Positions 10,045 through 64,000 of a stretch of DNA of 64,000 nt are shown here, one piece after another. The stretch covers positions 124,001 to 188,000 of the forward strand of contig NZ_CP104991.1 of the NCBI RefSeq assembly GCF_030323265.1. The letters are read 5' to 3'. This DNA is from Terrirhizobium terrae. Lineage in GTDB: Bacteria > Pseudomonadota > Alphaproteobacteria > Rhizobiales > Rhizobiaceae. How positions within the stretch are numbered: position 1 is the stretch's first letter; each line of letters opens with the position of its first letter. The notes under the pieces are model-generated. The model was given only the letters and a program-made list of their open reading frames with translations. It searched no databases and had not been told where the DNA came from. Position numbers and translations under genes: made by a program.

Positions 10045-13589
<3,545 letters not shown>

Positions 13590-13741
13590 ACGCCGGAACA
13601 TAGGTGGGGACACGATGAGATTTCGCTTATCAGCTCCTGGCGGACGCATGTTCTTGAGCGCGCTGTACTATCCTGATCGATCGCATGACTCGTAGTGCTT
13701 TTGAGCGGGATCGAACAATCGGCCCACCTGATTGTAGTCGC

Positions 13742-14760: not shown

Positions 14761-15166
14761 AACTGCGCCGGACAATGTCCAACCGATTTGGCCATCGGCT
14801 TAGCGCACACGATGCTCGAACTCGGAAGCCTGTCCCTCAGCGACAGGATGACCGTCAGGAACTAGCGCTGGATATGGCTCATTCAATGCACGAAGTGATG
14901 CAATGCGTGCCACCTGACCGTCACATCACACTTTGCATCTGTCCAGATCCCGCAATATCCGTGCGGATGTCAGCGCAACATTGGCGATCGCTGTTGGCTC
15001 GCGCATCCACTCAAGAGTGTTCTATCGGAAGGCATGCCTAGAAACCAATGGGCCTCGGTTCACCTTTTAGCCGCTTCTTTTGAGGCGGACTTTCGGCCCC
15101 AGTAGAGGAACAATCAGCATAGCGCTCCGTTAGGCCGCCATCACCCGGTAAAAGAAAGGCTGTTTC
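14761..15166. other. Intergenic region upstream of the second Pao set
   Basis: About 400 bases. Short open frames exist but none shows family similarity or consistent codon use. The region should contain the promoter of the 15167 operon. No clear operator was seen. Confidence 0.4.
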
Positions 15167-15691
15167 ATGGACATTAATGCTACCCAGTCCGCCCTTCCAA
15201 GCTGTCCCATCACCCTGAAGATCAATAGCGAGATCCACTCGCTTAATATCCAGCCGTGGGTGACGATGCTCGACCTCTTGAGAGGGCCGCTTGAACTGAC
15301 TGGCACAAAGAAGGGTTGCGACCACGGCCAGTGCGGCGCCTGCACGATCCTTATCGACGGCGAGCGGGTCAACTCGTGTCTCAAGCTCGCTGTCTCGCTG
15401 GATGGTTGCGAGATCACTACGATCGAAGGCCTTGGTTCGCCAGAAGCAATGCATCCGATGCAACGAGCCTTCGTGGAGCATGACGCGTTCCAGTGCGGCT
15501 ATTGCACTCCGGGACAGATCTGTTCAGCCGTTGGCTTGATCAAGGAAGGCCACGCCCATAGCCGCGCAGAGATCCGCGAACTGATGAGTGGCAACCTGTG
15601 TCGCTGCGGCGCCTACACCAACATTGCCGATGCTATCGAGGACGTTTTGGGCTCGGAAGCCGCTCGCAATTTCCGGGAGGCCGCAGAATGA
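15167..15691 (+). CDS. paoA: Second molybdenum aldehyde oxidoreductase, [2Fe-2S] subunit (PaoA-like)
   Basis: A 174-residue iron-sulfur subunit. The first cluster motif is GTKKGCDHGQCGACTIL, closer to Escherichia coli PaoA (GCDHGQCGACT) than the copy at 6050. The second is QCGYCTPGQICSA and GNLCRCGAYTNI. No twin-arginine signal is seen. It is the first gene of the second set and ends in a four-base ATGA overlap with the FAD subunit at 15688. The copy at 6050 has a longer loop before the second cluster pair, so the two sets are diverged paralogues and not a recent duplication. Confidence 0.86.
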   Translation: MDINATQSALPSCPITLKINSEIHSLNIQPWVTMLDLLRGPLELTGTKKGCDHGQCGACTILIDGERVNSCLKLAVSLDGCEITTIEGLGSPEAMHPMQRAFVEHDAFQCGYCTPGQICSAVGLIKEGHAHSRAEIRELMSGNLCRCGAYTNIADAIEDVLGSEAARNFREAAE

Positions 15692-16704
15692 GAGAGTTTT
15701 CTTATACCCGCGCCGAAACCGTCTCAGACGCCGTTTCCGCCCTCGCCTCCAACCCGCAAGCCCAGCTTCTCGCCGGCGGCACCAACCTCGTTGACTTAAT
15801 GAAATACGACGTCATGCACCCGGCCGCGATCATCGACATTAACCGCCTGCCGCTAAAATCCATAGAGGAAACCGAGGACGGCGATATTCGTATCGGCGCC
15901 CTCGTGAGCAATTCCGCCATTGCCTATGACGAACGGATCAAGGAACGCTTTCCGCTGCTTGCCAACGCGATCCTTGCTGGTGCCTCTCCGCAGCTTCGCA
16001 ACGCCGCGACTACCGGCGGCAACCTTTTGCAGCGCACCCGCTGTTACTACTTCTATGACCCGTCGACTCCTTGCAACAAACGCGAGCCCGGCTCGGGCTG
16101 CGGCGCAATCGGCGGCGTCAATCGAATACATGCCATTCTCGGCGCGAGCGACAAATGCATTGCCGTCCATCCGTCGGATATGTGCGTGGCGCTCGCCGCC
16201 CTCGCCGCCACCGTCGAGGTAGAAGGCCCGGCCGGCCGCCGGGACATTCCGTTCACCGAATTCCATCGCCTTCCTGGCGATTATCCGGAGCAGGACAACA
16301 CCCTGCAGGCTGGCGAAATGGTTACGGGCGTGCGTCTCGAAGGTCATCACTTCACCCGTAACTACACCTACCTGAAGCTCCGCGATCGCTTGTCCTACGC
16401 CTTTGCGCTGGTTTCCGTTGCCGTCGCCATGGATGTTTCCGATAGCCGCATCGTTGACCTGCGCGTCGCACTCGGCGGCGTAGCTCATAAGCCGTGGCGC
16501 AATACGTTGGTAGAAGCCCAATTTGCTGGCGCAACTGCCGACGAACCCACCTTCCGCCGTGTTGCCGACCGCCTGCTCGCGGGCGCCGAAGGCCAGGGCG
16601 AAAACGACTTCAAGATCCCGCTCGCCCGCAAGGCGATCGTCCGGGCGCTCAGGCAGGCCGCCGCCGGCACACCCCAGGATCAGACCGTCAAGGCGATCCA
16701 GTGA
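15688..16704 (+). CDS. paoB: Second molybdenum aldehyde oxidoreductase, FAD subunit (PaoB-like)
   Basis: A 338-residue subunit starting MREFSYTRAETVSDAVSAL. FAD loops are LLAGGTNLVDLM and AGASPQLRNAATTGGN. The extra [4Fe-4S] insertion is present as RTRCYYFYD, PCNKR and GCGAI. HPSDMCVALAALA and RLSYAFALVSVAVAM are characteristic of PaoB. A longer open frame begins at 15598 but it lies over the PaoA C-terminus; the ATGA overlap at 15688 is the natural start. An SD, GAAGGAGG, follows the stop and serves the next gene. Confidence 0.88.
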   Translation: MREFSYTRAETVSDAVSALASNPQAQLLAGGTNLVDLMKYDVMHPAAIIDINRLPLKSIEETEDGDIRIGALVSNSAIAYDERIKERFPLLANAILAGASPQLRNAATTGGNLLQRTRCYYFYDPSTPCNKREPGSGCGAIGGVNRIHAILGASDKCIAVHPSDMCVALAALAATVEVEGPAGRRDIPFTEFHRLPGDYPEQDNTLQAGEMVTGVRLEGHHFTRNYTYLKLRDRLSYAFALVSVAVAMDVSDSRIVDLRVALGGVAHKPWRNTLVEAQFAGATADEPTFRRVADRLLAGAEGQGENDFKIPLARKAIVRALRQAAAGTPQDQTVKAIQ

Positions 16705-16719
16705 AGGAGGACACGACAC

Positions 16720-18973
16720 ATGCTGAACGAGATCCAAAGTCGTCGGCCTTCCGAAATCCCGCATTGACGGGCCGCTGAAGGTCACCGGGCGGGCGCGCTA
16801 TGCCGCCGAGCACTTCGAGCCCGGCATGCTGCAGGGTTATGTCCTCTGCTCCACGATCGCCACCGGCCGCATAGCCGAGATCGATACTTCGGTCGCCGAC
16901 CGTTTTCCCGGCGTGATCAAGATCTACACCCATGAAAACCGGCCGAAAGTCGCCGAAAGCGACAAGAAGTGGAAGGACGAGGTCGCCCTGCCCGGCCACC
17001 CGTTCCGGCCGCTTGAAAGCGACCGCATCCTGTTCGACGGTCAGCCGGTCGCGCTCGTCGTGGCGGAAAGCTTCGAAGCTGCCCGCGACGCCACCTCGCT
17101 GATCCGGGTCACCTACGCAGGCGAAACGCCCCATACCGACCTCAGCCGCGAGGAGCCAAATTCCTACGTCCCGCCGGTCCCGCGCATGGAGGCCTTCATG
17201 CCGCCGCCGCCGCGAGGAGACGCCGAAAAAGCCTTTGCCGAGGCGCCCCGGAAGATCGCCGTCGATTACACGATCGAAGGCGAACACCATAATCCGATGG
17301 AGCTTTTTGGCACCACGGTCCTTTGGGAAAAAGACGGTGAACTGACGATCCACGACAAGACGCAAGGATCGCAAAACAGCCACGACTTCGTCTGCAACGT
17401 CTTCGGTCTCGACCCCGAGACGGTCACTGTGCAGAATAAATTCGTCGGCGGCGCGTTTGGCTCGGGCCTGCGCCCCAAATATCAGCTCTTCCTCGCCGTT
17501 ATGGCGAGCCTCGACTTGAAGCGGTCGATGAAGGTCGAGATGAGCCGACGCGAGATGTTCTACCTCAGTTGGCGTCCCAAGGCGATCCAGCGTGTGGCGC
17601 TCGCGGCAGATGCAGAAGGCCACCTTCAGGCCGTCTTACACCACGCCCTCCATGCCACCTCACGCTACGAGGACTACCAGGAAAACGTCGCCAACTGGTC
17701 AGGCCTCGCCTACAAGTGCGACAACGTCAAGATTTCCTACGAGATCGCCAAGCTCGACGTTTCGACCCCGGGCGACATGCGCGCTCCCGGCGCCGCCACC
17801 GGCGTCACGGCGCTTGAAACAGCAATGGACGAACTCTCCTACGAAGTCAGTATCGACCCACTTGAACTGAGGATCAGGAACTTCGTCCACCGCGACCAGA
17901 ACACGGATAAGGATATCACCTCCAAAGCCCTGCATGCCTGTTACCGCGAAGGTGCCGAGCGATTCGGCTGGGCGAAGCGCTCACCCGAACCCCGCTCGAT
18001 GCGCGATGGGGAGGAACTGGTGGGCTGGGGCATGGCGACGGGCTTCTGGGAAGCTCAGCTTTCCCCGGCCGAGGCCAAGGCGCGCCTCTCGTCCGACGGC
18101 AAGGTCGTTGTCTCTGCCGCCGCCTCCGATATCGGGACCGGCACCTACACCATCCTCGCCCAGCTTGGTGCCGAAGCTTTTGACGTGCCGCTTGAGGACG
18201 TAACGGTCAGGATAGCCAAGTCAACGCTGCCCAAGACCTCTGTCGAAGGCGGCTCCTGGACCGCAGCGTCAACCGGGTCCGCTGTTCAGGTTGCGGCAAA
18301 GACCGTCATCGCCACGCTCTTGAAGCACGCCCTTAAGATGGACAACTCGCCTCTCGAGGATGCCAAGTCGGAACAGGTTGAGATCGTCGGGGGTCGCCTC
18401 GTACTGGAAGCCAACCATCAGGTCGGCGTCGCGATTTCCGACATCATGCAGGCCGCCGGCGTCTCGTTCATCGAAGAACTTGGTCAGGTCGCGCCTGACA
18501 AGGCGATCCAGAAAAGGTTCTCCGCCTATACCCACTCCGCCGTGTTCGTGGAAGTGAAGGTGGACGAGGAGCTCGGCCGCCCACGTGTCACCCGGGTCGT
18601 TAGTGCCATTGGCGCCGGTCGCATTCTCAACCCAAAGACGGCGCGCAGCCAGATCCTCGGCGGTGTCGTTATGGGAATCGGCATGGCGCTTCATGAGGAA
18701 GGCATGGTCGATCACCGCACCGGCCGGATTATGAATCACAATATCGCCGAATACCATGTGCCGGCCCATGCCGACATCGAAGATATCGAGGTGATCTTTG
18801 TGGACGAGGACGACGACAAGGCGAGCCCAATCGGCGTTAAGGGCCTTGGTGAAATTGGTATTGTGGGGGTCGCTGCGGCTGTTTCGAACGCGATCTTCCA
18901 CGCGACAGGAAAGCGCATTCGCCATTTTCCCATCACGATCGACAAAATCCTCAAGGACGAAACAAGCCAATGA
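16720..18973 (+). CDS. paoC: Second molybdenum aldehyde oxidoreductase, molybdopterin subunit (PaoC-like), frame break near start
   Basis: The catalytic subunit, about 751 residues. The long frame from 16740 on carries KVVGLPKSRIDGPLKVTG, VGGAFGSGLRPKYQL, NPKTARSQILGG and the catalytic Glu segment KGLGEIGIVG. The start ATG at 16720 (with GAAGGAGG upstream) reads MLNEIQS in a different frame, so there is a break near 16738. Because this frame has a stop just upstream, the repair needs one base removed or two added. The next ATG within the long frame, at 16826, would delete the conserved RIDGPLK segment. A catalase-family gene overlaps its stop by four bases. Confidence 0.82.
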
Positions 18974-50318: not shown

Positions 50319-50711
50319 CCGGTTGTTGATGCGTTCAGGCCTTGGCCGGACCATCTGCCCGGCGACACTCTGCCGTGACGTGTAGAATGGAGCAAAAGCG
50401 CCGGCCACGTTTAGCTCTTGAACCATGTTTTTTCGGCATTGGTAGCGACGTCGTCCAACGTCGCATCTAATTGCTCGAGCCATCGCCGAAGGAGCTAAAG
50501 CGTCATGCTCGCTATCCTGGAAGCACTCGGTTCGCAATGCCACGTTACACGGGCATGAGTAGGCAAGAGATATTTTTCCAGCCTCCGCATCTACTAAAAT
50601 GCTTATCGAAAACGGTCGGTACAAAAATCGGCATTATGCTCACAATTTGCATGCTGTTGACTTATTGATACGTAGCAGTAGTTTACTGATACGTATCAAT
50701 AAAGGACTGAG
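50319..50711. promoter_or_regulatory. Intergenic region with likely LacI operator
   Basis: About 390 bases. The last 50 hold the palindrome TGATACGTATCA (50687-50698) and an upstream half copy TGATACGTA (50666-50674), a plausible LacI-type operator pair 14 bases before the ATG at 50712. No gene is seen in the remainder. Confidence 0.55.
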
Positions 50712-51770
50712 ATGCGCGGGCGGAGAATTACCCAAAGGGAAGTTGCAGAGCTTGCAGGCGTTGCCCAAGCAACAGTGTCGCTCGTTCTGAACGGTGGGCG
50801 AGACAAGGTATCTGTCGACACTGCCGAACGGGTGGAGAAAGCAATCACAGAGCTTGGCTATCAGCCAAATCGCTTCGCTCAGGCCCTTCGCACACAGCGC
50901 AGCCATGTGATCGCCTGTGTCGTGCCTGATCTCGCCAATCCGTTCTATCCTTCGCTCGTCGTTGCCGTGCAGCGTGTGGTTCGCGCTGCGGGATATGAAG
51001 TCATAACCATCGACACCGAAGGAAAATTGAGTAACGAGAGGCAGGTCGTCGCCGCGGCAAAGCAAGGCCGGTTCGATGGAATTGTTGGTGTATTCTTCAA
51101 TCTCGGCGCGAAGGAGCTTGCTCCGCTTGGAAAGTCGGGAGTTCCGGTTGTTCGGATCGAAGTCAGTCGCAAGGCTGGCGGTTCGCTGCCAATTGATGAT
51201 CTGTTCATAGACAATGAAGCGGCGGCGCGGGCGCTAACAGAACACCTGTTGCACATCGGTCATCGCGCAGTGGCGATGATCGCAGCACCCGGTGGCCCGC
51301 AACAGGTCCGGCTGAGAGGCTATTTGAGCGCGATGGCCACCATCGACGCGGCTCCGATCGTGCTGGAGGCCCCTCATTTCACGGTCGAAGGAGGCCGCAA
51401 GGCGGCCGACAACCTGATTGCAAGCGGCAAAACCGTGACCGCGATCGTTGCCGCCAATGACCTTATGGCGATCGGCGTGATGCAGAGCCTGATCTCACAC
51501 GGCCTATCGATACCCAGGGATATTTCCGTGGCCGGCTTCGACGACATCCTCGCCTCCGCGCTCGTGACGCCAGCCTTGACGACAGTGGCCCAGTTCCAGG
51601 ACCAGATCGGAGCGCGGGCCGCAGAACGACTGCTGGCGCGCCTGGCCGACGGGAAGACGGACCCGGGCCGCGCCGAGGAGATGCCATACGAGCTCATCAT
51701 CCGGGCTTCGGTGGCGTCGCCGCCGCATAGGCAGGAACAACATCATTCGACTAGGGAGAGAAGTCTATGA
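50712..51770 (+). CDS. LacI-family transcriptional regulator
   Basis: A 352-residue LacI regulator. Helix-turn-helix and hinge: ITQREVAELAGVAQATVSLV and ELGYQPNRFAQALRTQRS. The effector domain has VVPDLANPFYPSLVVAVQR, and near the C-terminus AANDLMAIGVMQSLISHGL and DISVAGFDDILASALVTPAL. Expected to sense a sugar of the following transporter. It overlaps the binding-protein gene by four bases (ATGA), so the regulator heads the operon. Confidence 0.9.
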   Translation: MRGRRITQREVAELAGVAQATVSLVLNGGRDKVSVDTAERVEKAITELGYQPNRFAQALRTQRSHVIACVVPDLANPFYPSLVVAVQRVVRAAGYEVITIDTEGKLSNERQVVAAAKQGRFDGIVGVFFNLGAKELAPLGKSGVPVVRIEVSRKAGGSLPIDDLFIDNEAAARALTEHLLHIGHRAVAMIAAPGGPQQVRLRGYLSAMATIDAAPIVLEAPHFTVEGGRKAADNLIASGKTVTAIVAANDLMAIGVMQSLISHGLSIPRDISVAGFDDILASALVTPALTTVAQFQDQIGARAAERLLARLADGKTDPGRAEEMPYELIIRASVASPPHRQEQHHSTRERSL

Positions 51771-53070
51771 CCAAGAACCGGCTTTTGATCGCCACCGTCC
51801 TGCTCGTTGGCACGGCTCAGGCGGCAGTGTCTCAGGAACGCGTATCCTGGTGGTATGAGCAAGCAACGCCCGATCAGCAAAAACTCATCCAGCAGAACAT
51901 CATCGAGCCATATAACAAGGCCAATCCGGATTATGCATTGAGCGTCGATTACCGCGGCAGCGAGTTGGACAAGCAGTTGCGCGTCGCCATGCTGTCCGGC
52001 AACGGCCCCGATGTCGTCTATACTGCGGGGCCGAGCTATGTTGCGCCGATGGCCCAGTCCGGCCAGTTAATGGCGCTCGACGACTATGCGGCGAAATACA
52101 AGTGGCAGGACCGCATCCTCCCGGTCTTCCTGAAGATGGGAGAATATGACGGCAAGCTCTACGCCCTGCCGAAGACCTACGAGACCGTCGGCCTGTTCTA
52201 CAACAAGACGCTGTTCGAAAAAACGGCTGGCAGGCACCGAAGACGCTCGACGAACTCGAAAAGGTCGCCGACGCGATGCTGGCGGCCGGGGTCACGCCGT
52301 TTGCGGCCGGCAATGCCGATTGGCGCGGTGCCAACGAATGGTTCGTGACCCTGGCGCTCAATTCGGTCGCAGGCCCCGAAAACCTCAACAAGGCACTCCG
52401 CGGCGAGATGCCCTGGACGGCCGAACCCTTCGTGCAGGCGATCGATCGTCTGAATGGCTGGTGGCAGAAGGGCTATTTCGGCAAGAACTATTTCTCGCTG
52501 ACCAGCAGCGAACAGGCGGCAGACATGATGGCATCTGGCCGGGCCGGCATGATGCCGACCGGCACATGGCAATTTCAGAATGTGGCCACCTATGGCAAGA
52601 AGGCAGGTTCCGAAGCGGGCTTCGTCGGCTTCCCGAGCGCCAGCGGCGATCCGGTCTTCCCGCTCGGTGTCGGCTCGACCTTCTCGATCGCCACACGCGC
52701 CAAAAATGCGGACGGCGCGGCTTCCGTCATCAACTACGTCTTCTCGCCGGAAATCTACGGCTCGATGAACTCGGCCTGGCAGGGTGAATGGAACGTGCCG
52801 CTCAAGGACATTTCCAACGTCAAGATGACGAGCGAGGTGGCACCGCTCTTCACGGAGACCATGCAGACATTGTCGGCCGCCGTGAACGAGGGCAACTATG
52901 GCTACACGACCTGGACCTTCCTGCCGCCGGCGACGGACAGCTACGTGATCAACGGCATTGAGGAGGTCTGGCTGAAGAAGGCCACGACGCAGGATTTCCT
53001 CACCAAGCTTGACGCTTCCTTCCAGAAGGAAATGAAGGCCGGAAAGGCGCCCGCCGTCCCGGCCCGCTAA
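51767..53070 (+). CDS. Sugar ABC transporter substrate-binding protein, single frameshift
   Basis: About 434 residues. A Sec signal peptide (LLIATVLLVGTAQAAVSQ) precedes VSWWYEQATPDQQKLIQQN. Near 52222 an A is missing from an AAAAAA run; repair gives FEKNGWQAPKTLDELEKVA, MASGRAGMMPTGTWQFQNV, a typical solute-binding family 1 pattern, and a C-terminus KAGKAPAVPAR. It captures a sugar in the periplasm. The ligand is unknown. Confidence 0.86.
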
Positions 53071-53171: not shown

Positions 53172-54017
53172 ATGCATCGCCTCTACGTCTTGCCGACATT
53201 GGTCATCAATGTCGTCATCATTGCCATACCGGCGCTCTTGACCGTGATGCTCGCGTTTTTCGAGTGGGACGGCATCAGCGATCCGATCTTTGTCGGTCTC
53301 GACAATTTCCGTGCGCTCTGGGACGACAGCGTCTTCTGGACCGCTCTGACCAACAACATCATCTGGACGATCATCTTTTTGATCGTCCCGATCACGATGG
53401 GCCTCTTGGCGGCGACGATGATGCTCGTCGCCCGGCGCAGCTCAAATTTCTTCCAGGTCATCTATTTCCTGCCCGTCATCATTGCGACCGCAATCACCGG
53501 CCGTGTCTGGCAGGGCATGATCTATTCGCCCGTGACGGGCGTGACCGGCCTCTTGCAGAGATACGGTATCGATATCGCCAATCCCCTGACGGAAACCTCG
53601 AGCGCACTCTACGGCATTGCAGTCGTCGATCTCTGGCACTGGTGGGGTTTTCTTTGCGTCATCTTCTTTGCCGCACTGCGGCAGGTGCCGGCCGAGCAGA
53701 TCGAGGCCGCCCGCGTCGAGGGGGCAACTTTCCTGCAGACGATCCGCTACGTGCTTCTGCCCGGCATCATGCCGACGATCACGCTAATGATGATCATGAC
53801 GGTGATCTGGTCATTCCTGGTCTTCGACTTCGTTTACATCCTCACCCAGGGCGGCCCTGCCTACTCCTCCGAAGTCCTGTCGACCTTCGCCTATCGATCC
53901 GCCTTCTATGACCTGGCGGTCGGCAAGGCAGCGGCGATCTCTGTCGTTATCAGCCTGTTCGGTCTGGCCGCAACCGTCTTCTACATCCGTGCCCAGGCCA
54001 AGGAGTTCGACCAATGA
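53172..54017 (+). CDS. Sugar ABC transporter permease (MalF-type)
   Basis: A 281-residue inner-membrane permease with six hydrophobic helices. The EAA loop reads IEAARVEGATFLQTIRYVLLP followed by GIMP. FEWDGISDPIFVGLDNF is typical of this family. The next permease begins four bases before its stop (ATGA). Confidence 0.9.
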   Translation: MHRLYVLPTLVINVVIIAIPALLTVMLAFFEWDGISDPIFVGLDNFRALWDDSVFWTALTNNIIWTIIFLIVPITMGLLAATMMLVARRSSNFFQVIYFLPVIIATAITGRVWQGMIYSPVTGVTGLLQRYGIDIANPLTETSSALYGIAVVDLWHWWGFLCVIFFAALRQVPAEQIEAARVEGATFLQTIRYVLLPGIMPTITLMMIMTVIWSFLVFDFVYILTQGGPAYSSEVLSTFAYRSAFYDLAVGKAAAISVVISLFGLAATVFYIRAQAKEFDQ

Positions 54018-54846
54018 ACATGTCCGAAAGCCGCGTAACACGGTGGCTGGTTCACTTCACGCTTGCAGTGCTTTTGATCATCACACTCTTCCCGATCGCG
54101 CTTATGGTGTTGAATTCGATTAAGCCGTCGGCAGAGATCGTGCAGAACCCGCTAGCCTGGCCGTCGCAACTGCGCTGGGATAATTTCTCTCGTGCTTGGA
54201 GCGACGCCAATTTCGGGCGCACGCTTTTGAACTCCGCCGTCCTCACGGCAATGACGATCGTGCTCGTCTGCACGACGGGCTCGCTGACCGCCTATGTTTT
54301 GGCGCGACGCAAGATCAAGACGTGGAAAATCCTGACATTCTATCTTCTGGCCAGCACCACCGCGCCGATCCAGCTGTTTCTCTTCCCACTTTACTTTGGG
54401 TTCGCCCGGTTCGGTTTGATCAACAATCCAATTGCCGTCTCCTTTATCTACACGGCGGTGTACTCCCCTTCGCGATCATGCTTTTGCGCACCTATTTCCT
54501 GGCCGTACCGAAGGAACTGGAAGAAGCTGCCCTGATCGACGGTGCCACGCACTGGCAGGTCTTCACCAAGGTCTTCCTTCCCATTGTCTCGCCCGGGATC
54601 CTGACGGTCGCGCTGATCATCGGGCTCTATTCGTGGAACGAGTTCCTGATCGCCACGACCTTCCTGCAGGGACAGGAGCAGCTGACCGCGGTCGTGTCCT
54701 TCTTCCTTCTCTCCGGCCAGTACTCGTCCGACTGGGGTGTGATCATGGCCGCCGCACTCATCATCATCCTTCCGATCGTCATTCTCTTCGTTCTTCTGCA
54801 GCGCCGCTTCATTGACGGCATGGCCGGCGGTTCGGTGAAGGGCTAA
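54014..54846 (+). CDS. Sugar ABC transporter permease (MalG-type), single frameshift
   Basis: About 278 residues. The N-terminal part has LFPIALMVLNSIKPSAEIV. Near 54465 one C is missing from CCCC; repair gives VYSPFAIMLLRTYFLAVPKE, the EAA loop LEEAALIDGATHWQVFTKVF followed by LPIV, and SWNEFLIATTFLQG. It pairs with the permease at 53172. ATGA overlap with the former gene shows translational coupling. Confidence 0.86.
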
Positions 54847-54859
54847 CAAGGAGTATCGC

Positions 54860-56949
54860 ATGTCCATTCCCGCAGACTACAACAACCGCGTCTATGCAGG
54901 CGTCCTCGGCAAGCTGATTGGCGTTTATCTCGGCCGCCCGTTCGAGAACTGGCGCTACAAGGACATTCTCGAAAAGCTCGGTCCCATCACCTATTACGTT
55001 CACGACCGGCTGGGTGATCCGCTCGTCGTCACCGACGACGACGTCGCCGGAACCTTCACCTTCCCCCGCGCGCTCGACGACTACGGTATTTCTCCGGATC
55101 TGTCGGCGGAGGATATCGGCAAGGCCTGGATGAATTACATCATCGAGGAGCGCTCGATCCTCTGGTGGGGAGGCGCCGGCAACTCCACTGAGCATACCGC
55201 CTGGCTCAATCTCGCGCGTGGCATCCCTGCCCCGGCGTCCGGCTCGATCGAGACCAACGGCGCAACTGTCGCCGAACAGATCGGCGCACAGATCTTCATC
55301 GACGGCTGGGCACTTGTCTCCCCGGCAACCCGGCACAGGCAGCCAAGCTCGCGCGGGCCGCAGGCTCCGTCAGCCATGACGGCGAGGCGGTCCACGCAGC
55401 AGTCCTGTGGGCCGCGATGGAAGCCGAAGCATTTCTCAGCAAGGACGTCGACCATCTGCTCGATACCGGCCTTGCCCATATCCCCAAGGACAGCCTGATT
55501 GCCAAACTGATCGCCGATATCCGTAAGTGGACGTCCGGCAACGAGGACTGGGAAGCAACGCGTCAGAAGATCGAGGACAATTACGGATACGACAAATATC
55601 CGGGCAATTGCCATGTTGTACCGAACCACGCACTGATGATCATGGCGCTCCTGCACGCCCCGCACGATTTCCAGCGCGGCCAAATGATCGTCAACACCTC
55701 TGGCTGGGACACCGACTGCAATGCCGGCAATCTCGGCTGCCTTCACGGCATCATGCTCGGACTGGACGGACTTGATGCCGGTCCGGACTGGCGTGGCCCC
55801 GTCGCCGACCGGATGTATATCTCGTCTGCCGACGGCGGCCGCTCGGTCAATGATGCCGTCGATACCGCGCTCTGGCTCGCCAACCTCGGCCGCAAGCTGG
55901 CCGGTGTTACCGCGGAGCCTGCTCCGAAGAACGGTGCCAAGTTCCACTTCTCGCTGCCGGGCGCCGTCCAGGGCTTTCGCGCGCAACCCGGCCAGATTGC
56001 GCTCGATGGTCTGACGGTAACCGGCACCGGCAAGGCGCTGGCACTCGATTTCCGCGCACTGGCGCCTGGTCGCGAAGCGGCGGCGACCACGCCGGTCTTC
56101 ACGCCACTCGACGTCCTGAAAATGCGGACCTACGATCTGATGGCGAGCCCGCGCATCCATGCCGGCCAGACACTGCGCGCCTCTGTCAGCGCCGAGGCCG
56201 GCAATAGCGGGTCAGTCGAGGCAAAGCTTCGCATCCGCCATTACGATAGCAACGACAAGCTCGTTGACATCGACATGCCGACCGGAAAACTGCTTTCGGC
56301 GGGCGAGACCGCAACGCTCGAATGGATCGTTCCAGAAACCGGCTTTCAGCCTATCGCCGAGGTCGGCGTTGTCCTGTCGGCCGCTGACGGTCGCGCCAAC
56401 GGCCGCGTTCTCGTCGATTCGCTGACCTGGGACGGATGCCCGGACGTGACCTTCCGGCGGCCGGAGGGTGCGGGCGACTTCTGGCGTCGCGCCTGGGTCT
56501 CCAATGTCCATTTCTTCTCCAAGCATTTTCCGCAGGACATCCGCATCAGCCAGAACCGCGGTTCGGGCCTGATCCTCCAGGGCACACGCGACTGGACGGA
56601 CTATGCCGTCGAAGCCGACCTGATGCTACATCTCGGCGATTTCGGTGGCCTCGTGCTGCGCGCGGAAGGACAGCGCCGCTATTATGCCGCCCGCCTCACC
56701 CGCAAGGGCGAACTGCAGATCGTAAGGCGTCGGGATCAGACGGAAGAGATCCTCGCATCGGCAGCGCTCGATATCCCGTTTGAGACCGCCTTCACCATGG
56801 TCGCATCGGCCAAGGGTGAACAGATCACCGTCAAGGTCGGCGATCTCACGCTCGAGGCGCAGGACGGCATGTTTGCCGGAGGTTCGGCGGGCATGGAAAT
56901 TCACGAGGGCGCCTTGTCCTCCACACGCATCCGCATCCGGGCAGTTTGA
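54860..56949 (+). CDS. ADP-ribosylglycohydrolase-family enzyme with C-terminal beta-sandwich extension, single frameshift
   Basis: About 697 residues. The N-terminal ~340 form an ADP-ribosylglycohydrolase fold: VYAGVLGKLIGVYLGRPFE, the metal-binding TDDDVAGTF (Thr58-Asp61), and SGWDTDCNAGNLGCLHGIM as the second metal cluster. Near 55322 one C is missing; repair gives SPGNPAQAAKLARAAGSV. From about residue 370 follow two beta-rich regions: a domain with AGQTLRASVSAEAGNSGSV and a LamG/concanavalin-like one (FGGLVLRAEGQRRYYAARL). The family usually cleaves ADP-ribose links; here, lying between permease and ATPase genes of a sugar importer, it probably hydrolyses an N- or O-glycoside. No signal peptide. 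Confidence 0.8.
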
Positions 56950-56959
56950 GGAGACGATC

Positions 56960-58018
56960 ATGGCCAGTGTTACAATCGACAAGGTCGTCAAGAAATACGG
57001 CAGCCTGCAGGTGGTCCACAGCATCGACGCCGAGATCGCCGACGGCGAATTCGTCGTGCTTGTCGGCCCGTCGGGCTGCGGCAAGTCGACCCTGCTGAGG
57101 ATGATTGCAGGGCTCGAAGAGATCTCCGGCGGCAGAATTTCGATCGGCGATCGCGTGGTCAACGACCTGCCGCCGAAGAGCCGCGATATCTCCATGGTCT
57201 TCCAGAACTACGCGCTTTATCCGCATATGACGGTGGAGGAAAACATGGCCTTTTCGCTGACGCTTGCCGGCGCCAGTAAGGAGGAAAAGGCGAAGAAGGT
57301 TCGCCAAGCCGCCGAGATTCTCGGTCTCGTTCCGCTTCTCGACCGCAAGCCGAAGGCGCTTTCGGGCGGCCAACGGCAGCGTGTCGCGATGGGACGTTCA
57401 ATCGTCCGCAATCCCCAGGTCTTCCTGTTCGACGAGCCACTTTCCAATCTTGATGCGAAGCTGCGGGTTCAGATGCGTGGTGAGATAAAGTCGCTCCATC
57501 GTAGGCTCCGCACGACCATGATCTATGTCACCCATGACCAGATCGAAGCCATGACGATGGCGGACCGGATCGTCGTCATGCAGAGCGGCATCATCGAGCA
57601 GGTCGGTACGCCGTTGGAGCTTTATGACCGGCCGGCAAATGCATTCGTGGCGCAGTTCATCGGATCCCCCGCAATGAACCTGTTTTCCACGGTGGTCAGG
57701 GGAACGGATCTGGTCCTTGAGGATGGGAGTGCAATCGGCTTATCGCCCCCGACGGCGGCGCGCGACGGTCAGGAAATCCTTGTCGGCAAACGACCGGAAG
57801 AAATCGATGTTGCAACAGGGAGCGGGCTTCAGGCGACCGTCGAGAACATCGAGCCAACCGGATCGGAAACGTTCGTCGAGATGTCGGTCAACGGTCAGAT
57901 GATTTCCGTCGTACTTCGTGCCCGTCCCACTTTCGACGTTGGGAACCGTCTATCTCTATCGCTGGCTCGCGGTGCAACACATTTCTTCGAAAAGGATAAC
58001 GGCAAGCGAATTGGGTGA
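56960..58018 (+). CDS. Sugar ABC transporter ATPase (UgpC/MalK-type)
   Basis: A 352-residue ATPase: Walker A GPSGCGKSTLL, signature LSGGQRQRVAMG, Walker B VFLFDEPLSNLD, switch YVTHDQIEAMT, and the C-terminal regulatory OB-fold (LVGKRPEEIDVATGSGLQA). GAGGAGACG precedes the ATG. It is the last gene of the LacI operon and powers the two permeases. Confidence 0.9.
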   Translation: MASVTIDKVVKKYGSLQVVHSIDAEIADGEFVVLVGPSGCGKSTLLRMIAGLEEISGGRISIGDRVVNDLPPKSRDISMVFQNYALYPHMTVEENMAFSLTLAGASKEEKAKKVRQAAEILGLVPLLDRKPKALSGGQRQRVAMGRSIVRNPQVFLFDEPLSNLDAKLRVQMRGEIKSLHRRLRTTMIYVTHDQIEAMTMADRIVVMQSGIIEQVGTPLELYDRPANAFVAQFIGSPAMNLFSTVVRGTDLVLEDGSAIGLSPPTAARDGQEILVGKRPEEIDVATGSGLQATVENIEPTGSETFVEMSVNGQMISVVLRARPTFDVGNRLSLSLARGATHFFEKDNGKRIG

Positions 58019-58352: not shown

Positions 58353-59098
58353 TTACCCGCAGTGATATCCGCCGTCGACCGGCAAGGTAACTCCAGTCAC
58401 GAAGGTTGCGGCAGGTGAACACAGAAAAAGGACGGGCCCGACCAAATCCTCGGTGGTTCCCCAACGCTTCAGCGCTGAACGATCCGCGATCTTCCTTTCG
58501 CTTTCGGCGACCGACCAGAGCGGCTTCGTCATTTCCGTCCTGTGATAACCGGGGCCGACGGCGTTAACGCGCACGCCGTCGCGGCCATATTTATGCGCAA
58601 GCGCACGTGTCAGTCCGACAATGCCGGTCTTGCTCGCGGTGTAGGAGGGCACGCTCTCATCGGCGAGATAGCTCAGCATCGAGGCAAAGTTAACGATGCA
58701 GCCGCCGCTTGCCTTCAGCAGGGGAAAGCCGCGCGCGACAGGCGCATGGCGCTGTTGAGATTGACGTCCATGACGTCGAGAAAGACCTCTTCCTCCCATT
58801 CGGCGTCGGGCCGGGCGATGCCCTGGCAATTGACCAGCACGTCGAGCTGATCGAGCCCGGCAAAGAAGCGAGATACCGCTTCACCATCGCGAACATCAAG
58901 TTGCTCGAAGCGAAGGCCCTTAGGAACCTCTCCCGAGGCCGCTGCCTGCAGCCTGTTCTGCGAACTGCCTGTGGCGATCACCTCAGCGCCGGCTTTTGCA
59001 AACCCCTCCGCGACGCTGAGCCCGATTCCGCTCGTGCCGCCGGAAACAACCACGGTCCTGCCGTGCAAAAATGGTCCGAACGCCGAAATCTCCTGCAT
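58353..59098 (-). CDS. SDR family oxidoreductase, single frameshift
   Basis: About 249 residues. N-terminal VVVSGGTSGIGLSVAEGF is the cofactor-binding turn, then VLVNCQGIA. Near 58728 one C is missing from CCCC; repair gives FPLLKASGGCIVNFAS, the active site SYTASKTGIVGLTRAL (Tyr and Lys) and TGVTLPVDGGYHCG at the end. An NAD(P)-linked polyol or sugar dehydrogenase is likely. It is the most distal gene of the polyol operon, 20 bases after GldA. Confidence 0.83.
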
Positions 59099-59118
59099 GG
59101 TTTCCTCCCCTCATGCTT

Positions 59119-60207
59119 TCAGATCAGTACCTTCAAGGCAGCGACGACCATTGCTTCCGTCACCGTAATGGGCTCGTTGTGAATGATTTCGCCGGGCCGG
59201 CAGGCGCGTTTTGCGACGATCGCGAGTTTTGCCTCGGAAGCATCGACGATGCCGATATCGGCGAGCCGGGTCGGCAGGCGCACCGACAGGCAGAAGTCGC
59301 GGACCTTTCGGAATTCCTCATCCTGCCCGTGAAGCTTCAGGCCTGCCAGAACACCGATTGCGACCTTTTCCCCGTGCAGATGGTGGTGAACATCCTCGAG
59401 TTCGCAAAGGCCATGATGGATCGCATGCGCTGCCGCCACGCCGCCGGATTCAAAGCCGATCCCCGAAAGAAGAATATTCGCTTCGACGATCCGCTCCAGC
59501 GCAGGGCTCGCCTCTCCCGCATCGCAATCCGCCAGTGCGGCTGCGCCGAATTCGAAAATCGTGTCCCGGCAAGCCCTCGCGACTTCGAAGGCAAGGCTGA
59601 CACCCGGCATTTTCATGCAGTTGAACGCACCGCTGCGGCGGCAGGAATCCGCCTCGTAGAATGTCGCCAACGCATCGCCTATTCCGGCCGCGAGAAAACG
59701 GGCTGGGGCCTTGGCGATCAGGGCCGTATCGACCAGGACAAGATCGGGGTTTCTTGGCAGGAACGTGTCATAGGCGACGGTACCGTCATCGTTGTAGACG
59801 ACGGCAAGCGCGCTGCAGGGCGCATCCGATGCCGCAATCGTCGGAAAGATGATGACCGGCAGGCCGAGATCGCGGGCCGCGGCCTTTGCCGTGTCGAGCG
59901 CCTTGCCGCCGCCAACACCGATGATGACCTCGGCTGCGCCATCGCGCGCCGAGGCGGAGAGTGCGGCGATCTGGCTCTCGGAGCATTCGCCGCCATGGCG
60001 GATCAACCGGGCCTCGACATGTCCTTCAAGCGCTGCAGAAAGAGTAGCTTCCAACATGTCGTAGATACCGCGATCGACGAGAACCGCGGCGCGATGGCCG
60101 AAACCGGCGGCCTCCGCACCCAGCATCCCGATTGCGCCCGCCGCCTGGATATAACGCCCGGGAAAACGGGCGCCGCGGGCGGTGCCGGCCAAAGCGTTTA
60201 CCAGCAT
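59119..60207 (-). CDS. gldA: Iron-containing alcohol dehydrogenase, glycerol dehydrogenase (GldA)-like
   Basis: A 362-residue group III alcohol dehydrogenase. GVGGGKALDTAKAAA binds NAD, FPTIAASDAPCSALAVVY is the cofactor cap, and metal ligands lie in GIGDALATFYEAD, AHAIHHGL and HLHGEKVAIGVLAG. GGAGGATATGT precedes the ATG. Glycerol is the classical substrate, but in this operon another polyol may be used. The start overlaps the upstream SDR by ten bases. Confidence 0.86.
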   Translation of the reverse strand: MLVNALAGTARGARFPGRYIQAAGAIGMLGAEAAGFGHRAAVLVDRGIYDMLEATLSAALEGHVEARLIRHGGECSESQIAALSASARDGAAEVIIGVGGGKALDTAKAAARDLGLPVIIFPTIAASDAPCSALAVVYNDDGTVAYDTFLPRNPDLVLVDTALIAKAPARFLAAGIGDALATFYEADSCRRSGAFNCMKMPGVSLAFEVARACRDTIFEFGAAALADCDAGEASPALERIVEANILLSGIGFESGGVAAAHAIHHGLCELEDVHHHLHGEKVAIGVLAGLKLHGQDEEFRKVRDFCLSVRLPTRLADIGIVDASEAKLAIVAKRACRPGEIIHNEPITVTEAMVVAALKVLI

Positions 60208-60970
60208 ACATATCCTCCGTCAGCAAGCACGATCGAGCCGGTCATCAGGCTGGATGCTTCGCTGGCAAGGAAAAGGATGACGGAGGCCACCTCGTCGGTG
60301 CGGCCGAGCCTGTTCATCGGCGTGCCGCCGACCCAGTGGCGGTACATTTCCGGGTCGTCGTAGACGTATTTGTTCATTTCGGTGTCGATATAGGTCGGCG
60401 CCACGGAATTGACGCGCACGCCCCGCGCACCCCATTCGGCCGCAAGCGACTTCGTTAGGTGATGAACGGCGGCCTTGGAGGCGTTGTAATTTGCCTGTTC
60501 CTGTGGTCGGTTGACGATGAAGCCGGACATGGATCCGACATTGACGATGCTGCCGCCCCCTGTTCCAGCATGGTCTTGCCGAAGGCGCGGCAGCACCAGA
60601 ACACGCCGTTCAGGTTGACGTCGATCACCTTGTTCCAGACCTCGTCCGCCATGGTTTCGGCCGGATGATTGCTGATGGCGATGCCGGCATTGTTGACGAG
60701 GACATCGACACGGCCGTGGCGAGCGAGGATGGCGTCGTGGACGGTTTTCACGCCTTCGACATCGGTAACGTCGAGCAGTTCGCCCTCGACCTTGAAACCC
60801 TTGGCTTTAAGTTCGCCGACGGCCTTTTCCAGCAGTTCGGCATTCATGTCGGTCAGCACGACCGTCGCGCCGGCCTCGCAAAGGGCTTCGACAGCGGCAT
60901 AGCCGATGCCTCTTGCCGCTCCCGTCACGACGGCGATCTTGTCGGTCAGCTTGAATCTATCGAGATACAT
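60198..60970 (-). CDS. SDR family oxidoreductase, single frameshift
   Basis: About 258 residues. VVTGAARGIGYAAVEALCE, VLVNNAGIAISNHPAETM. Near 60563 one G is missing from a G-run; repair gives GGGSIVNVGSMSGFIVNRPQ, the active-site ANYNASKAAVHHLTKSL, and TGSIVLADGGYVCW. Similar to sorbitol or xylitol-type dehydrogenases. Start at the ATG of MYLDRF; it lies 13 bases inside the HAD gene. Confidence 0.84.
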
Positions 60971-61649
60971 GGACAATTTCCTTTGCGGGTGTTTTCGGCG
61001 CCGTGGCGAGGCAAGCGCTCAATGTCGGCATCAGATCATGCGGGTCGGCGAGGATTGCGTCGGCCGGAAAGACGAGGTCTTCGCGGCCCGGCTCCGGCCA
61101 GGCAATCACGGTCATGCCCGCGGCAAGGCCGGCAACGGCGCCGGGAACGCTGTCTTCCACGACGATGCAATCCGCAGGATCAAGCCCGAGCAGGTAGACG
61201 GCGCGGAGATAGGGCTCCGCATGCGGCTTGCCGTTGCGCACGTCGTTGCGCGTAACGGAGACCAGGCCGGGCCGCTGCAGGTCGATGGCGCGCAGGTTCG
61301 CATCGACCAGAATGCGGTCCGAATTCGAGACGATCGCGTGGGGAATACCGTCGCGCTTCAGGGCAGCGATCACAGCCTCGGCCGATGGCCGCCATGATAG
61401 CGAGGCGGCCATTTCCAGATAGGTCGTATTTTTGGCGGCGGCATGGTCAGTGAAGGAAAGCGCAAGCCCCAGCCTGTCGCACAGCAGCGCATGGCATGCT
61501 TCGCCGGTCATGCCGGTGATCTCTTCCGAAAGCCCGTCCGGCACCGTATGGCCGTGGTTTCGAAGCACCGCCACCATGGCGGCAAAATGGGTCGGCTCGC
61601 TGTCGACAAGCGTCCCGTCCATATCAAAGAGTACGGCACGCGTCGTCAT
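60957..61649 (-). CDS. HAD-superfamily phosphatase (beta-phosphoglucomutase/sugar-phosphatase type)
   Basis: A 230-residue HAD protein: LFDMDGTLVDSEPTHFAAM (catalytic Asp pair), AIVSNSDRILVDANL (motif II), GKPHAEPYL (Lys of motif III) and CIVVEDSVPGAVAGLAAGM (acidic motif IV). With the helical cap type of sugar phosphatases and phosphomutases. The ATG at 61649 overlaps the FGGY stop by four bases. It likely handles a sugar or polyol phosphate. Confidence 0.87.
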   Translation of the reverse strand: MTTRAVLFDMDGTLVDSEPTHFAAMVAVLRNHGHTVPDGLSEEITGMTGEACHALLCDRLGLALSFTDHAAAKNTTYLEMAASLSWRPSAEAVIAALKRDGIPHAIVSNSDRILVDANLRAIDLQRPGLVSVTRNDVRNGKPHAEPYLRAVYLLGLDPADCIVVEDSVPGAVAGLAAGMTVIAWPEPGREDLVFPADAILADPHDLMPTLSACLATAPKTPAKEIVHVSR

Positions 61650-63148
61650 TGCGGCAGCCTGTCGAGGTCGTCGTAAAGCGTCTGGCTGTGCTGATAGAGC
61701 TTTTCGAAGAAGGTCTGCATGGGACGATAGGTATCCGCCCATGCCGGATCGGGCCGGATCTCCTCATCATAGGCGACATAGGCATCGGCCGCCGCCTGCA
61801 GATCGGAAAACCGCCCCGTGGCCGTCGCTGCCATGATGCCGCAGCCCACAAGTCCGCATTCGGCTTCCCGCGGCACGAGGATCGGGATGTCGTAGACACT
61901 CGCCTTGATCTTCAGCCAGAGTTTAGTCTTCGCGCCGCCGCCCGAGGCAATCACGCGCTCCAGCGGTGCGCCTGAAATCCTGTCTAGAATGTTGATATGC
62001 CGCTTCACCGCGAAGGCGACGCCTTCGAGGATCGACCGGTGCATATGCGCAAGGCCATGGCCGGCGCCGATCCCGAAATATTGCGCCCGGGCGTTGCGGT
62101 GGTCTCCCAGCCGTTCGCCGGTGAGATAGGGCATGAAGAACAGCCGTTCGGACCCGGCCGGCGCTTCGGCCGCCTTTGCAACGATATCCTCGTAGGAAAA
62201 CTGCTTGTCATGGAAGGCGCGGCGCGCCCAGCGCATGGCATCGCCGCCGGATTCCAGCAGCATGAAGGCACCCCAATTGCCCTCGACGGTGCCGACATTG
62301 CAGACGGAGGGATCAAGCAGGGGCTGGCTGGCGATCGCTGTGATGATGGCGGATGTGCCCATCACTTCCGACCCGACGCCCGGCCGGCAGACGCCGGAGC
62401 CGAGAAGTGCGACCGGATAATCGGCACCGCCGACCAGAACCGGCGTGCCTTCCAGAAGGCCGGTCTCCACGGCAGCCTGTGCCGTAACCGAGCCCAGGAT
62501 CTCCACCGGATTGCGCAGCGGAGCGAGTTTTTCACGATCCAGGCCAAGCAGCGCGACCATCTTTTGCGACCAGTCGCCGGTGCGGGGATCCATGAGAAAA
62601 CTTGCCCCGCCGTCACCGCGGTCCATAGCGATCTCGCCGGTCAGGCGCAGATTGATGAAATCCTTCGGCATCAGCACGGCTGCGGTGTTGCGATAGGCAG
62701 AAGGATCATTGTCGCGCAGCCATTGCAGCTTGAAACCCGGCCAGGCCGGGGTCGGCGGATTGGCGCAGTCCGCAAGATAGCTTTCGGGACGGTTTTCCGC
62801 TTCGAAGGCCGTTACATGGTCGACTGTGCGCTTGTCGTTCCAGAGTGGTACCGTCTCGCGCACCAGTTCGCCACGATCGTCGACCAGAACCGTTCCGTGC
62901 ATTTGGCCGCAGGCGGCGACAGCCGCAATCCGGCTTGCTGCATCCGGCAGTTCGGCAAGCACCGAGCGCGTTGCGGCGGCAACGCCCGCCCACCAATCCC
63001 GCGGCCGCTGTTCCGACCATCCGAACTGGGGAACGATCTGGTCATGTTCGCGGCTGGTGACGGCAAGGATCTTGCCGTGTGTATCGAGCAGCGCCGCCCG
63101 GACGCTGCCCGTCCCGACATCGATTGCGAGAAAGAGGTCTTTTGACAT
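61646..63148 (-). CDS. FGGY-family carbohydrate kinase (xylulokinase-like)
   Basis: A 500-residue kinase: LAIDVGTGSVRAALLDTHG (phosphate loop), GQMHGTVLVDDRG with the MHG substrate motif of xylulokinases, and ERVIASGGGAKTKLWLKIKA in the C-terminal ATPase lobe. It phosphorylates a ketose or polyol. It is 21 bases downstream of the permease gene. Confidence 0.87.
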   Translation of the reverse strand: MSKDLFLAIDVGTGSVRAALLDTHGKILAVTSREHDQIVPQFGWSEQRPRDWWAGVAAATRSVLAELPDAASRIAAVAACGQMHGTVLVDDRGELVRETVPLWNDKRTVDHVTAFEAENRPESYLADCANPPTPAWPGFKLQWLRDNDPSAYRNTAAVLMPKDFINLRLTGEIAMDRGDGGASFLMDPRTGDWSQKMVALLGLDREKLAPLRNPVEILGSVTAQAAVETGLLEGTPVLVGGADYPVALLGSGVCRPGVGSEVMGTSAIITAIASQPLLDPSVCNVGTVEGNWGAFMLLESGGDAMRWARRAFHDKQFSYEDIVAKAAEAPAGSERLFFMPYLTGERLGDHRNARAQYFGIGAGHGLAHMHRSILEGVAFAVKRHINILDRISGAPLERVIASGGGAKTKLWLKIKASVYDIPILVPREAECGLVGCGIMAATATGRFSDLQAAADAYVAYDEEIRPDPAWADTYRPMQTFFEKLYQHSQTLYDDLDRLPQ

Positions 63149-63169
63149 GTCTTTGCTTTGGATTGCGGC

Positions 63170-64000
63170 TTACTTGCGGAACCAGTTCGAGGCGTATTGC
63201 AGCAGCATGGCACCGATGATGATGCATCCCATGAACACCTGCTGGTGATAACCGGGCACGCGCGCCAAGTTCATCATATTCGCGATAATCCCGAGCACAA
63301 GCACGCCGATGAAGGTGTTGACCACACCGCCGCGGCCGCCCATCAGACTGGCACCGCCAATCACCACGGCCGCAATCGCATCGAGTTCGGCGCCGACACC
63401 GATATTGGCCGAGCCGATGCCCGTGCGGCTGGTGGAGACGATACCGGCCGCTGCCGCAAGTACGCCGGAGATGACATAGACCGAGGTCGTGTAGAAGGCG
63501 ACCGGAATGCCGGACAGGCGGACAGCCTCGACATTCGAACCGATCGCCTTCACCAGCCGGCCGAAGCGGGTCAGCGACAAGACGATGCCGGCGACTACGA
63601 AGACCGCCGCCATCAGCCAGACCGGATAGGGCAGACCGGCAAACGACATCGATCCAAAGTTGACGATCATCATGCCGGCATCACCCATCTGGATCGGCTG
63701 CCCCGACGAGACGGTGAGCGACAAGCCGCGGGCAACCGTCATCATCGCCAAAGTCGTGACGAAAGGCGGCAGTTTCAGAAATGCCACAAGGATGCCCGAG
63801 ACGAGCCCGCAGGCACCGCCGGCCAGAAGTGCTGCGCCAATCGACATCCCGGTCCCATATTGCTGGATGAGGATGGCGCAGATGACGCTGCCGAGTGCAG
63901 CGATAGAGCCGACAGACAGGTCGATCCCTCGGGTGAGGATGACAAAGAGCAGGCCCATCGCCATCAGACTGGTGCCGGCACTCTGGCGCAGCACGTTGAT
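63170..64000 (-). CDS. RbsC-type sugar ABC transporter permease (partial, runs off right edge)
   Basis: At least 276 residues of a ribose-type permease: AMGLLFVILTRGIDLSVGSI, AALGSVICAILIQQYG, FVTTLAMMTVARGLSLTVSS, AAVVIGGASLMGGRGGVVN. GIDLSVGSI and GGxSLxGGxG are the RbsC family signatures. The 5' end is outside the window. It belongs with an ATPase and binding-protein gene presumably just beyond the right edge. Confidence 0.9.
   Translation of the reverse strand: MNVLRQSAGTSLMAMGLLFVILTRGIDLSVGSIAALGSVICAILIQQYGTGMSIGAALLAGGACGLVSGILVAFLKLPPFVTTLAMMTVARGLSLTVSSGQPIQMGDAGMMIVNFGSMSFAGLPYPVWLMAAVFVVAGIVLSLTRFGRLVKAIGSNVEAVRLSGIPVAFYTTSVYVISGVLAAAAGIVSTSRTGIGSANIGVGAELDAIAAVVIGGASLMGGRGGVVNTFIGVLVLGIIANMMNLARVPGYHQQVFMGCIIIGAMLLQYASNWFRK

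Follow-up and report, generated by a model that had tools for sequence, protein, structure and literature searches.

What might an enzyme of the ADP-ribosylglycohydrolase (ARH) fold be doing inside a sugar-import operon? Proteins with this fold are commonly annotated as ADP-ribose removers, and the question is raised by a gene at positions 54860-56949 (plus strand) of a 64,000-nucleotide stretch of contig NZ_CP104991.1 of Terrirhizobium terrae, the whole of which we call the window. The gene encodes a long ARH protein with two C-terminal beta domains and belongs to a lacI-led cassette of importer genes. Our preferred answer, which we hold with moderate confidence, is that the protein is a cytoplasmic, metal-dependent ARH-fold furanosidase acting on an imported oligosaccharide or glycoside, and that it is not a protein-ADP-ribose hydrolase. 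Titles and abstract openings of open-licence PMC papers yielded no description of an ARH family with carbohydrate-binding-module (CBM) domains, of its activity or of its substrate.

Relatives were collected in one scan of GTDB genomes using the second part of the window gene as the query (in the window the gene is read in two frames, as discussed below). At least 578 stretches encode a relative, which places the gene beyond chance. Neighbourhood counts refer to the best 80 loci of these stretches, designated by L numbers, and a full-length alignment covers 48 of the 80 fetched ARH relatives; in most of the 80 loci the protein is 694-706 residues long. Domain coordinates from the relative in Rhizobium sp. 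Leaf306 (L001), the first listed in the scan, are valid for the window because the second part of the window gene equals residues 187-696 of L001 in length.

The original prediction of an ADP-ribosylglycohydrolase-type gene at this position was borne out by profile searches, in which both parts of the window gene (65.9 and 67.5 bits) exceeded the Pfam cut-off for PF03747 (26.2 bits), as did L001 (178.2 bits); neither part was assigned to an NCBIfam family. The catalytic domain comprises about residues 1-350 (54860-55908, plus strand, across the two frames) and was delimited by PF03747 and by fold. An AlphaFold2 model of L001, built from a 48-row alignment, had a mean pLDDT of 86.3 and a pTM of 0.88, with residues 103-106 below 50. 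Among the best 50 rows of the structure search, to which all fold matches refer, residues 4-348 of this model matched ARH3 (6g1p) with a Z score of 31.2 and a root-mean-square deviation (rmsd) of 3.0 over 305 residues, and MJ1187, DraG and ARH1 matched with Z scores of 26.5-30. No signal-like N terminus was apparent by eye in the window ARH protein.

Residue E29 (54944-54946), the TDDD motif (residues 58-61; 55031-55042) and the DTDCN motif (residues 284-288, from 55708 in the window, with DTDC at 55708-55719) are invariant in all 48 aligned relatives, as are many other residues, and E29, D60, D61, D284 and D286 are also invariant in a profile of 13 diverse ARH domains. When this profile is compared with MJ1187, DraG and ARH3, D60 and D61 take the columns of the two Asp residues in T-D-D, and D284 and D286 those of the Asp residues in D-x-D-(T/S). 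The ARH3 variants E41A, D77A and D314A appear in PDB titles among the fold matches.

Two C-terminal beta-sandwich regions had also been foreseen, and structure prediction combined with fold search points to one of CBM22 type and one of CBM66 type. The C-terminal CBM66-like domain (about residues 531-696; 56449-56946, plus strand) was recognized both by sequence, in that the family profile matches CBM66 of Bacillus subtilis levanase (E 1.9e-05), and by fold, with residues 531-695 of L001 matching 4b1m (Z 22.6, rmsd 1.8, 152 of 161 residues). The middle domain (about residues 354-530; 55918-56448, plus strand), modelled alone from relatives (45 rows, pLDDT 88.1), has a predicted CBM22/15/27-like fold; it matched CBM22 4xup with Z 14.7 and rmsd 2.9 over 148 residues, and the next matches listed were CBM27, CBM15, CBM28, CBM29 and CBM4 at Z 10.7-12.8. 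Judging from the model, it is a CBM22-type beta-sandwich, and we claim no single CBM family for it. The three-domain architecture is the rule across the long ARH family and is not an oddity of the window copy.

The sugar-import cassette and its operator

The window cassette is ordered operator, lacI, substrate-binding protein (SBP), malF, malG, ARH, ugpC. It opens with a double LacI-type operator (50662-50702, an inverted repeat with no strand assigned). The two palindromes, TTGATACGTAGCAG (50665-50678) and CTGATACGTATCAA (50686-50699), are spaced by 21 bp, and the latter ends 12 nt 5' of the lacI start. The genes that follow are all on the plus strand and encode a LacI-family repressor (50712-51770; PF00356 and Peripla_BP_3), which shares 77-81% identity with its cassette counterparts in L003 and L001, an SBP of the SBP_bac_1 family (51767-53070), a MalF-type permease (53172-54017; PF00528, about 85% identical to that of L001), a MalG-type permease (54014-54846), the ARH protein and a UgpC/MalK-type ATPase (56960-58018, the start inferred by aligning relatives). 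The ATPase scored 501.7 bits against the NCBIfam UgpC subfamily (cut-off 432), and profile matches confirmed the original placement of the ARH gene in a lacI-led operon, where a gene for a MalG-type permease precedes it and one for a UgpC-type ATPase follows. The SBP_bac_1 protein, two BPD_transp_1 permeases and MalK/UgpC ATPase (two of these four genes being frame-broken) make up an importer that we take to be of the CUT1 type. Among the nearest solved structures for the L003 SBP are an XOS-binding protein, a sugar-binding lipoprotein and chitin-oligosaccharide-binding proteins, and we count the fact that several of them are named oligosaccharide-binding in favor of the furanosidase reading.

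A comparative neighbourhood analysis, which the original prediction had called for, found the cassette kept in 63 of the 80 loci and a LacI-type operator in 46. Using bit thresholds that the analyst chose in the script, all five partners were matched in those 63 loci, and 57 of the 80 had the order LacI-SBP-MalF-MalG-ARH-UgpC on one strand; among the remaining 17, seven were without UgpC only, and L068 and L071 are short contigs. The operator palindrome, TGATACGTATCA with at most one mismatch, gave 63 hits, compared with 0.8 in letter shuffles, and was nearly always located 5' of lacI (5' of the ARH gene in L042 and L043). Within the own genome, the 14-base site TTGATACGTATCAA, allowing one mismatch, matches at the ARH operon only. 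The cassette often appears self-contained, because in 46 of the 80 loci UgpC is followed by no open frame of at least 200 residues starting directly 3' (a few of these loci soon reach a contig edge). Candidate genes behind UgpC are present in 17 loci, 11 of which were scanned: L065 has a kinase gene there, and the others have members of unrelated families or none.

The family is patchily distributed. It was found in 2 of 60 genomes chosen as relatives and, in a class-level genome search, in 4 of 385, both counts including the own genome. In a survey of 394 Rhizobiaceae genomes, counting matches at E 1e-25 or better, 38 had an ARH match, which by score were 21 of the long class, 14 of a class with two ARH genes (9 of the 14 verified by neighbourhood) and three of a short class, all from one genus.

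Two other arrangements were seen. In a second cassette type, genes for LacI, two permeases and SBP are followed by one for an ARH of roughly 400 residues, one for a 700-residue ARH and ugpC, such that two different ARH enzymes adjoin; it occurs in L089, L098, L099, L100, L101 (plasmids), L156-L162, L166 and L167, of which L160 is the L099 record by length and L156 is cut by the contig start. The smaller ARH has canonical TDDT and DTDS motifs in the four that were read (L089, L099, L100 and L101), and the larger is about 32-35% identical to the window type. In enterobacteria (L076, L077, L079 and L090, in the last at 9053-17152), a LacI-ARH-SBP island lies between chiP and glnS, names taken from the L090 annotation, with no adjoining permease or ATPase genes; its SBP would need another importer. 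The L090 segment is from a large Enterobacter plasmid with a chromosome-like fur-chiP-nag region.

Links to furanose-acting enzymes

A gene for a GH172 (DUF2961) enzyme lies beside the ARH gene in 2 of the 80 loci, L074 and L016, neither of which has the usual importer; both carry a CUT1 importer of the GH172 type in its stead. In L074, genes for SBP (partial), MalF, MalG, GH172 and ARH follow one another on one strand, and in L016 an SBP-MalF-MalG-UgpC-GH172 operon, cut by the locus edge, is divergent from the ARH gene. The permeases of these two loci share 65-71% identity, both between the loci and with the permeases of a GH172 operon on pSymB of Sinorhizobium meliloti; for their GH172 proteins the identity is 76% over 241 residues. 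We considered whether the GH172 importer is orthologous to that of the window type and rejected this, the permeases of the relatives being only 26-31% identical. Among solved structures, the exo-alpha-D-arabinofuranosidase 8ic8 was closest to the L074 GH172 protein (455 bits), and the difructose dianhydride I synthase/hydrolase scored 123 bits. In the ARH tree, L074 and L016 fall on separate branches, that of L074 being long and its placement unsure. GH172 is rare in Rhizobiaceae (9 of the 394 genomes). At that frequency, chance would place about 0.005 GH172 genes in the 80 loci, which total 1.03 Mb; the figure is rough, as it takes genomes to average 5 Mb and the host backgrounds differ. In 8 of the 9 genomes GH172 lies near MalF/MalG-type permease genes; in genomes G523, G812, G818 and G792, one GH172 copy has MalG on one side and UgpC on the other, an arrangement also found in S. 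meliloti, and this is the slot that ARH occupies in the window.

The pSymB operon (L103, 5268-11948) reads LacI-SBP-MalF-MalG-GH172-UgpC, and 51 Sinorhizobium plasmid records match. Its GH172 protein is nearer the difructose-dianhydride enzyme than the arabinofuranosidase. One paper mentions SMb20231, a number that may belong to this operon.

ARH enzymes cleave 1,2-cis furanosides, as in the alpha-D-ribose of ADP-ribose, and beta-D-arabinofuranosides (beta-D-Araf) and beta-D-fructofuranosides (beta-D-Fruf) have the same cis arrangement. Together with the GH172 pairing, this stereochemical argument is part of the reason that we read the long ARH protein as a cytoplasmic furanosidase. An inducer would lift LacI from the double operator observed 5' of lacI, after which the SBP, MalF, MalG and UgpC proteins would import the glycoside intact. 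The predicted CBM22-type and CBM66-type domains would hold part of the sugar near the active site, and the ARH domain, with metal on D60-D61 and D284/D286 and with the conserved Glu, would hydrolyze the furanosidic bond, a cleavage that we liken to the action of ARH3 and DraG on ADP-ribose. The freed sugar would enter general metabolism, given that many cassettes hold no further enzyme. The original prediction of a small imported glycoside as substrate, in place of protein ADP-ribose, is in keeping with the cassette and with the GH172 and ribokinase links; the enzyme activity it assumed is one that we, too, infer.

A narrower proposal, which we advance tentatively, is that the long ARH family represents a new glycoside hydrolase type: a metal-dependent, ARH-fold exo-enzyme that would remove 1,2-cis D-furanosyl ends, either beta-D-Araf or beta-D-Fruf, from imported oligosaccharides, with the CBM66-type domain gripping the same residue. 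According to the respective reports, the Bifidobacterium dentium cluster of the GH172 enzyme alphaFFase1 includes a putative GH32 beta-fructofuranosidase (PMC8605356), and a Microbacterium D-arabinan cluster pairs GH172 with a GH116 exo-beta-D-arabinofuranosidase (PMC10509167). In each, GH172 serves alpha-D-Fruf or alpha-D-Araf and its partner the opposite linkage. The long ARH protein is a beta-furanosidase candidate because, in L074 and L016, it takes the place of GH32 or GH116 beside GH172. Dedicated D-arabinose enzymes were not seen in the loci examined, in which no targeted search for them was made; this speaks against the D-arabinose version, and fructose or ribose would therefore be easier products.

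Ribokinase-like genes offer a second link to furanoses and bear on a different substrate. Among the 80 long-class loci they occur in four (L031, L051, L053 and L065), compared with about 0.3 expected by the analyst's estimate from 51 matches in 40 genomes, and the ARH operons in Deinococcus aetherius and in Agrobacterium HAMBI 105 contain them as well. With four loci of 80, the idea that ribokinase generally accompanies long-class ARH was rejected, and the kinase was kept out of the main evidence. Short ARH relatives, about 460 residues long, have a ribokinase gene nearby in all five loci inspected (L088, L163, L164, L165 and L169), which represent three lineages, since L163-L165 are from one genus. 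In L163 (3637-14054), one operon encodes a Bmp-type importer (SBP, ATPase and two permeases), an ARH of 461 residues and an inosine-uridine nucleoside hydrolase. This operon adjoins a divergent ribokinase gene and a gene for a RuBisCO-like protein. The neighbours of the Escherichia coli predicted ARH YegU are likewise described as a putative nucleoside symporter and as a putative kinase of sugars (PMC10819704). The neighbourhoods of the short relatives and of YegU would suit an N-ribosidase of imported nucleoside-like compounds, such as modified or alpha-linked ribosides, with the ribose freed and then phosphorylated by ribokinase. For the long class we consider such an activity unlikely, as this class uses CUT1 importers with oligosaccharide-type SBPs, has two CBM-type domains and lies near ribokinase in just those four loci, and L163 has a different kind of importer.

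Several observations weigh against the furanosidase reading. The Thr that precedes the first Asp pair is D59 in the long class, and the Thr/Ser that follows the second pair is C287 (T58 of TDDD is not the Thr ligand position, the column of which is occupied by D59); the metal chemistry may therefore be altered or lost. As to binding, the CBM66 fold leaves the ligand unfixed: one report gives fructan-end binding as the only earlier CBM66 function and adds that a Cohnella CBM66 binds xanthan, not fructan (PMC11002231). The GH172 link amounts to 2 of 80 loci, and a GH172 search of the own genome gave no match; across the 394 Rhizobiaceae genomes, no significant ARH/GH172 co-occurrence was found, ARH being present in 2 of 9 GH172-positive genomes compared with 36 of the other 385 (p 0.21). 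L051 and L053 are close relatives, with ribokinase about 5 kb off on the opposite strand. Finally, the clade of L044, L051 and L053 has a metallophosphoesterase gene in the usual UgpC slot, for which the furanosidase reading offers no explanation. The L044 gene (7605-9401, 3' of ARH) encodes a protein of 598 residues that has a metallophosphoesterase domain and, judged by eye, N-terminal hydrophobic stretches, and a PDB search with this metallophosphoesterase returned no match.

The two substitutions also qualify the earlier statement that the metal-binding clusters TDDD and DTDCNAG are intact, which stands for the four Asp residues, kept in all 48 relatives, and not for the hydroxyl ligands, now D59 and C287. 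By profile and fold the long ARH protein is a PF03747 member, and by sequence its metal site is non-canonical. The same substitutions, together with the two binding-type domains, could indicate a non-catalytic protein that binds sugar on a dead ARH scaffold and thereby modulates either the importer or the repressor. We judge this very unlikely, because E29, TDDD, DTDCN and many other positions have remained invariant in 48 of 48 sequences and because the slot between MalG and the ATPase is also filled by GH172 in several Rhizobiaceae operons.

It is, in our estimate, highly improbable that the protein is a true ADP-ribose hydrolase, acting on protein or on a small molecule, with an incidental location in a sugar operon. 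ARH3, apo and with ADP-ribose, is the best fold match listed (Z about 31), and the four Asp and the Glu are conserved, as such an enzyme would have them; against this stand the importer genes linked to it in 63 of the 80 loci, the two CBM-type domains, and Asp and Cys at two hydroxyl ligand positions. A search for DraT (PF07357) had no match in the own genome and none in the controls either, and so does not speak for the absence of DraT. Protein-ADP-ribose hydrolysis, the first reading for such a fold, was set aside on linkage and domains, not on an assay, and the long ARH protein should not be filed as a protein-ADP-ribose hydrolase by function.

Broken reading frames and the flanking operon

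A single open frame of 697 residues, as originally described for the ARH gene, did not hold up on comparison with relatives: the first frame, from 54860, stops at 55498, and the second ends at 56949, with the two joined near 55321-55324. The stretch has 2090 nt in the window and 2091 in the closest relatives, and the gap aligns into a C-run near 55321. The window SBP gene (near 52217, A-run) and MalG gene (near 54466, C-run) likewise have single-base gaps in short homopolymers. Codons of the second part of the ARH gene, compared with three relatives, gave nonsynonymous divergence (dN) of 0.10-0.14 and synonymous divergence (dS) of 0.95-1.25, for a dN/dS of about 0.08-0.13. Elsewhere, a short-chain dehydrogenase/reductase (SDR) gene near 60.55 kb needs two frames to align with a distant SDR, and a single TGA lies within the sole ribokinase match of the own genome, as in one match in genome G005. 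The own assembly consists of 3 contigs and has a completeness of 91.25%, compared with 96-100% in 35 listed congeneric genomes.

Judging from these sequence features, the frame breaks in the window are most likely long-read assembly errors; decay is possible and less likely. We read them as sequencing errors because they fall in short homopolymers, dN/dS is low and the relatives are intact. Single-base gaps in the SBP, MalG and ARH genes, three of the six in the operon, are what a decaying pseudogene operon would contain. We regard that explanation as quite unlikely, given that all three gaps lie within short homopolymers, that dN/dS is about a tenth, that further genes of the own genome look split and that completeness is below that of the congeneric genomes.

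A neighbouring minus-strand operon (58353-63994), of polyol/pentulose type, encodes an SDR, a glycerol-dehydrogenase-like protein, a second SDR, a HAD phosphatase, a xylulokinase-like kinase and a ribose-type permease. It was rejected as a downstream pathway, because it did not emerge as a conserved neighbour of the ARH cassette: the flanking genes of the relatives form, for the most part, clusters that each span one or a few loci. Within 58353-60976, the SDR genes at about 58.7 and 60.5 kb seem to be split, judged from overlapping frames. Together with those of the SBP, MalG and ARH genes, these splits suggest an unpolished long-read assembly, which may affect the annotation of the whole genome.

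Comparison with known systems

A family encoded by at least 578 related stretches, mostly in sugar-import cassettes and with two domains of carbohydrate-binding type, suggests that part of the ARH superfamily has moved into sugar catabolism. If the protein is a furanosidase, it would found a new glycoside hydrolase family, correct a common annotation and provide a test case for the re-tuning of an ADP-ribose metal site to plain sugars. For rhizobia and their relatives, the cassette also amounts to an accessory nutrient trait under regulation, and its substrate could easily be screened.

With ARH3, DraG and MJ1187 (PF03747), the long ARH protein has in common the catalytic fold (Z 27-31), the two Asp pairs and a Glu in the region of the first helix. 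It alone has two C-terminal CBM-type domains and linkage to a sugar importer; it also has Asp and Cys at two Thr/Ser ligand positions, and Val where those three proteins carry Asp in "GD(A/C)". Its C-terminal domain is like CBM66 of the B. subtilis levanase SacC in sequence profile and overall fold, and is joined to a seemingly cytoplasmic ARH enzyme, whereas that of SacC is joined to a levanase.

The GH172 clusters of B. dentium and Microbacterium arabinogalactanolyticum, as described in their reports, also combine an ABC importer with furanosidases, and the proposal for M. arabinogalactanolyticum is that oligosaccharides enter the cell before exo-enzymes, which are without a signal sequence, degrade them (PMC10509167). 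The partner enzyme there is GH32 or GH116, whereas in L074 and L016 it is ARH, and most ARH loci hold ARH with its own importer and without GH172. The nearest known arrangement in spirit, by analogy, is yegTUV of E. coli, which likewise combines an ARH-family enzyme, a transporter, a sugar kinase and one repressor (PMC10819704). According to that report, the transporter is a putative nucleoside:H+ symporter and the regulator is of the GntR family, and the function of yegTUV is likewise unsolved; the window-type cassettes instead set an ARH enzyme with two CBM-type domains within a LacI-led, CUT1-type importer operon.

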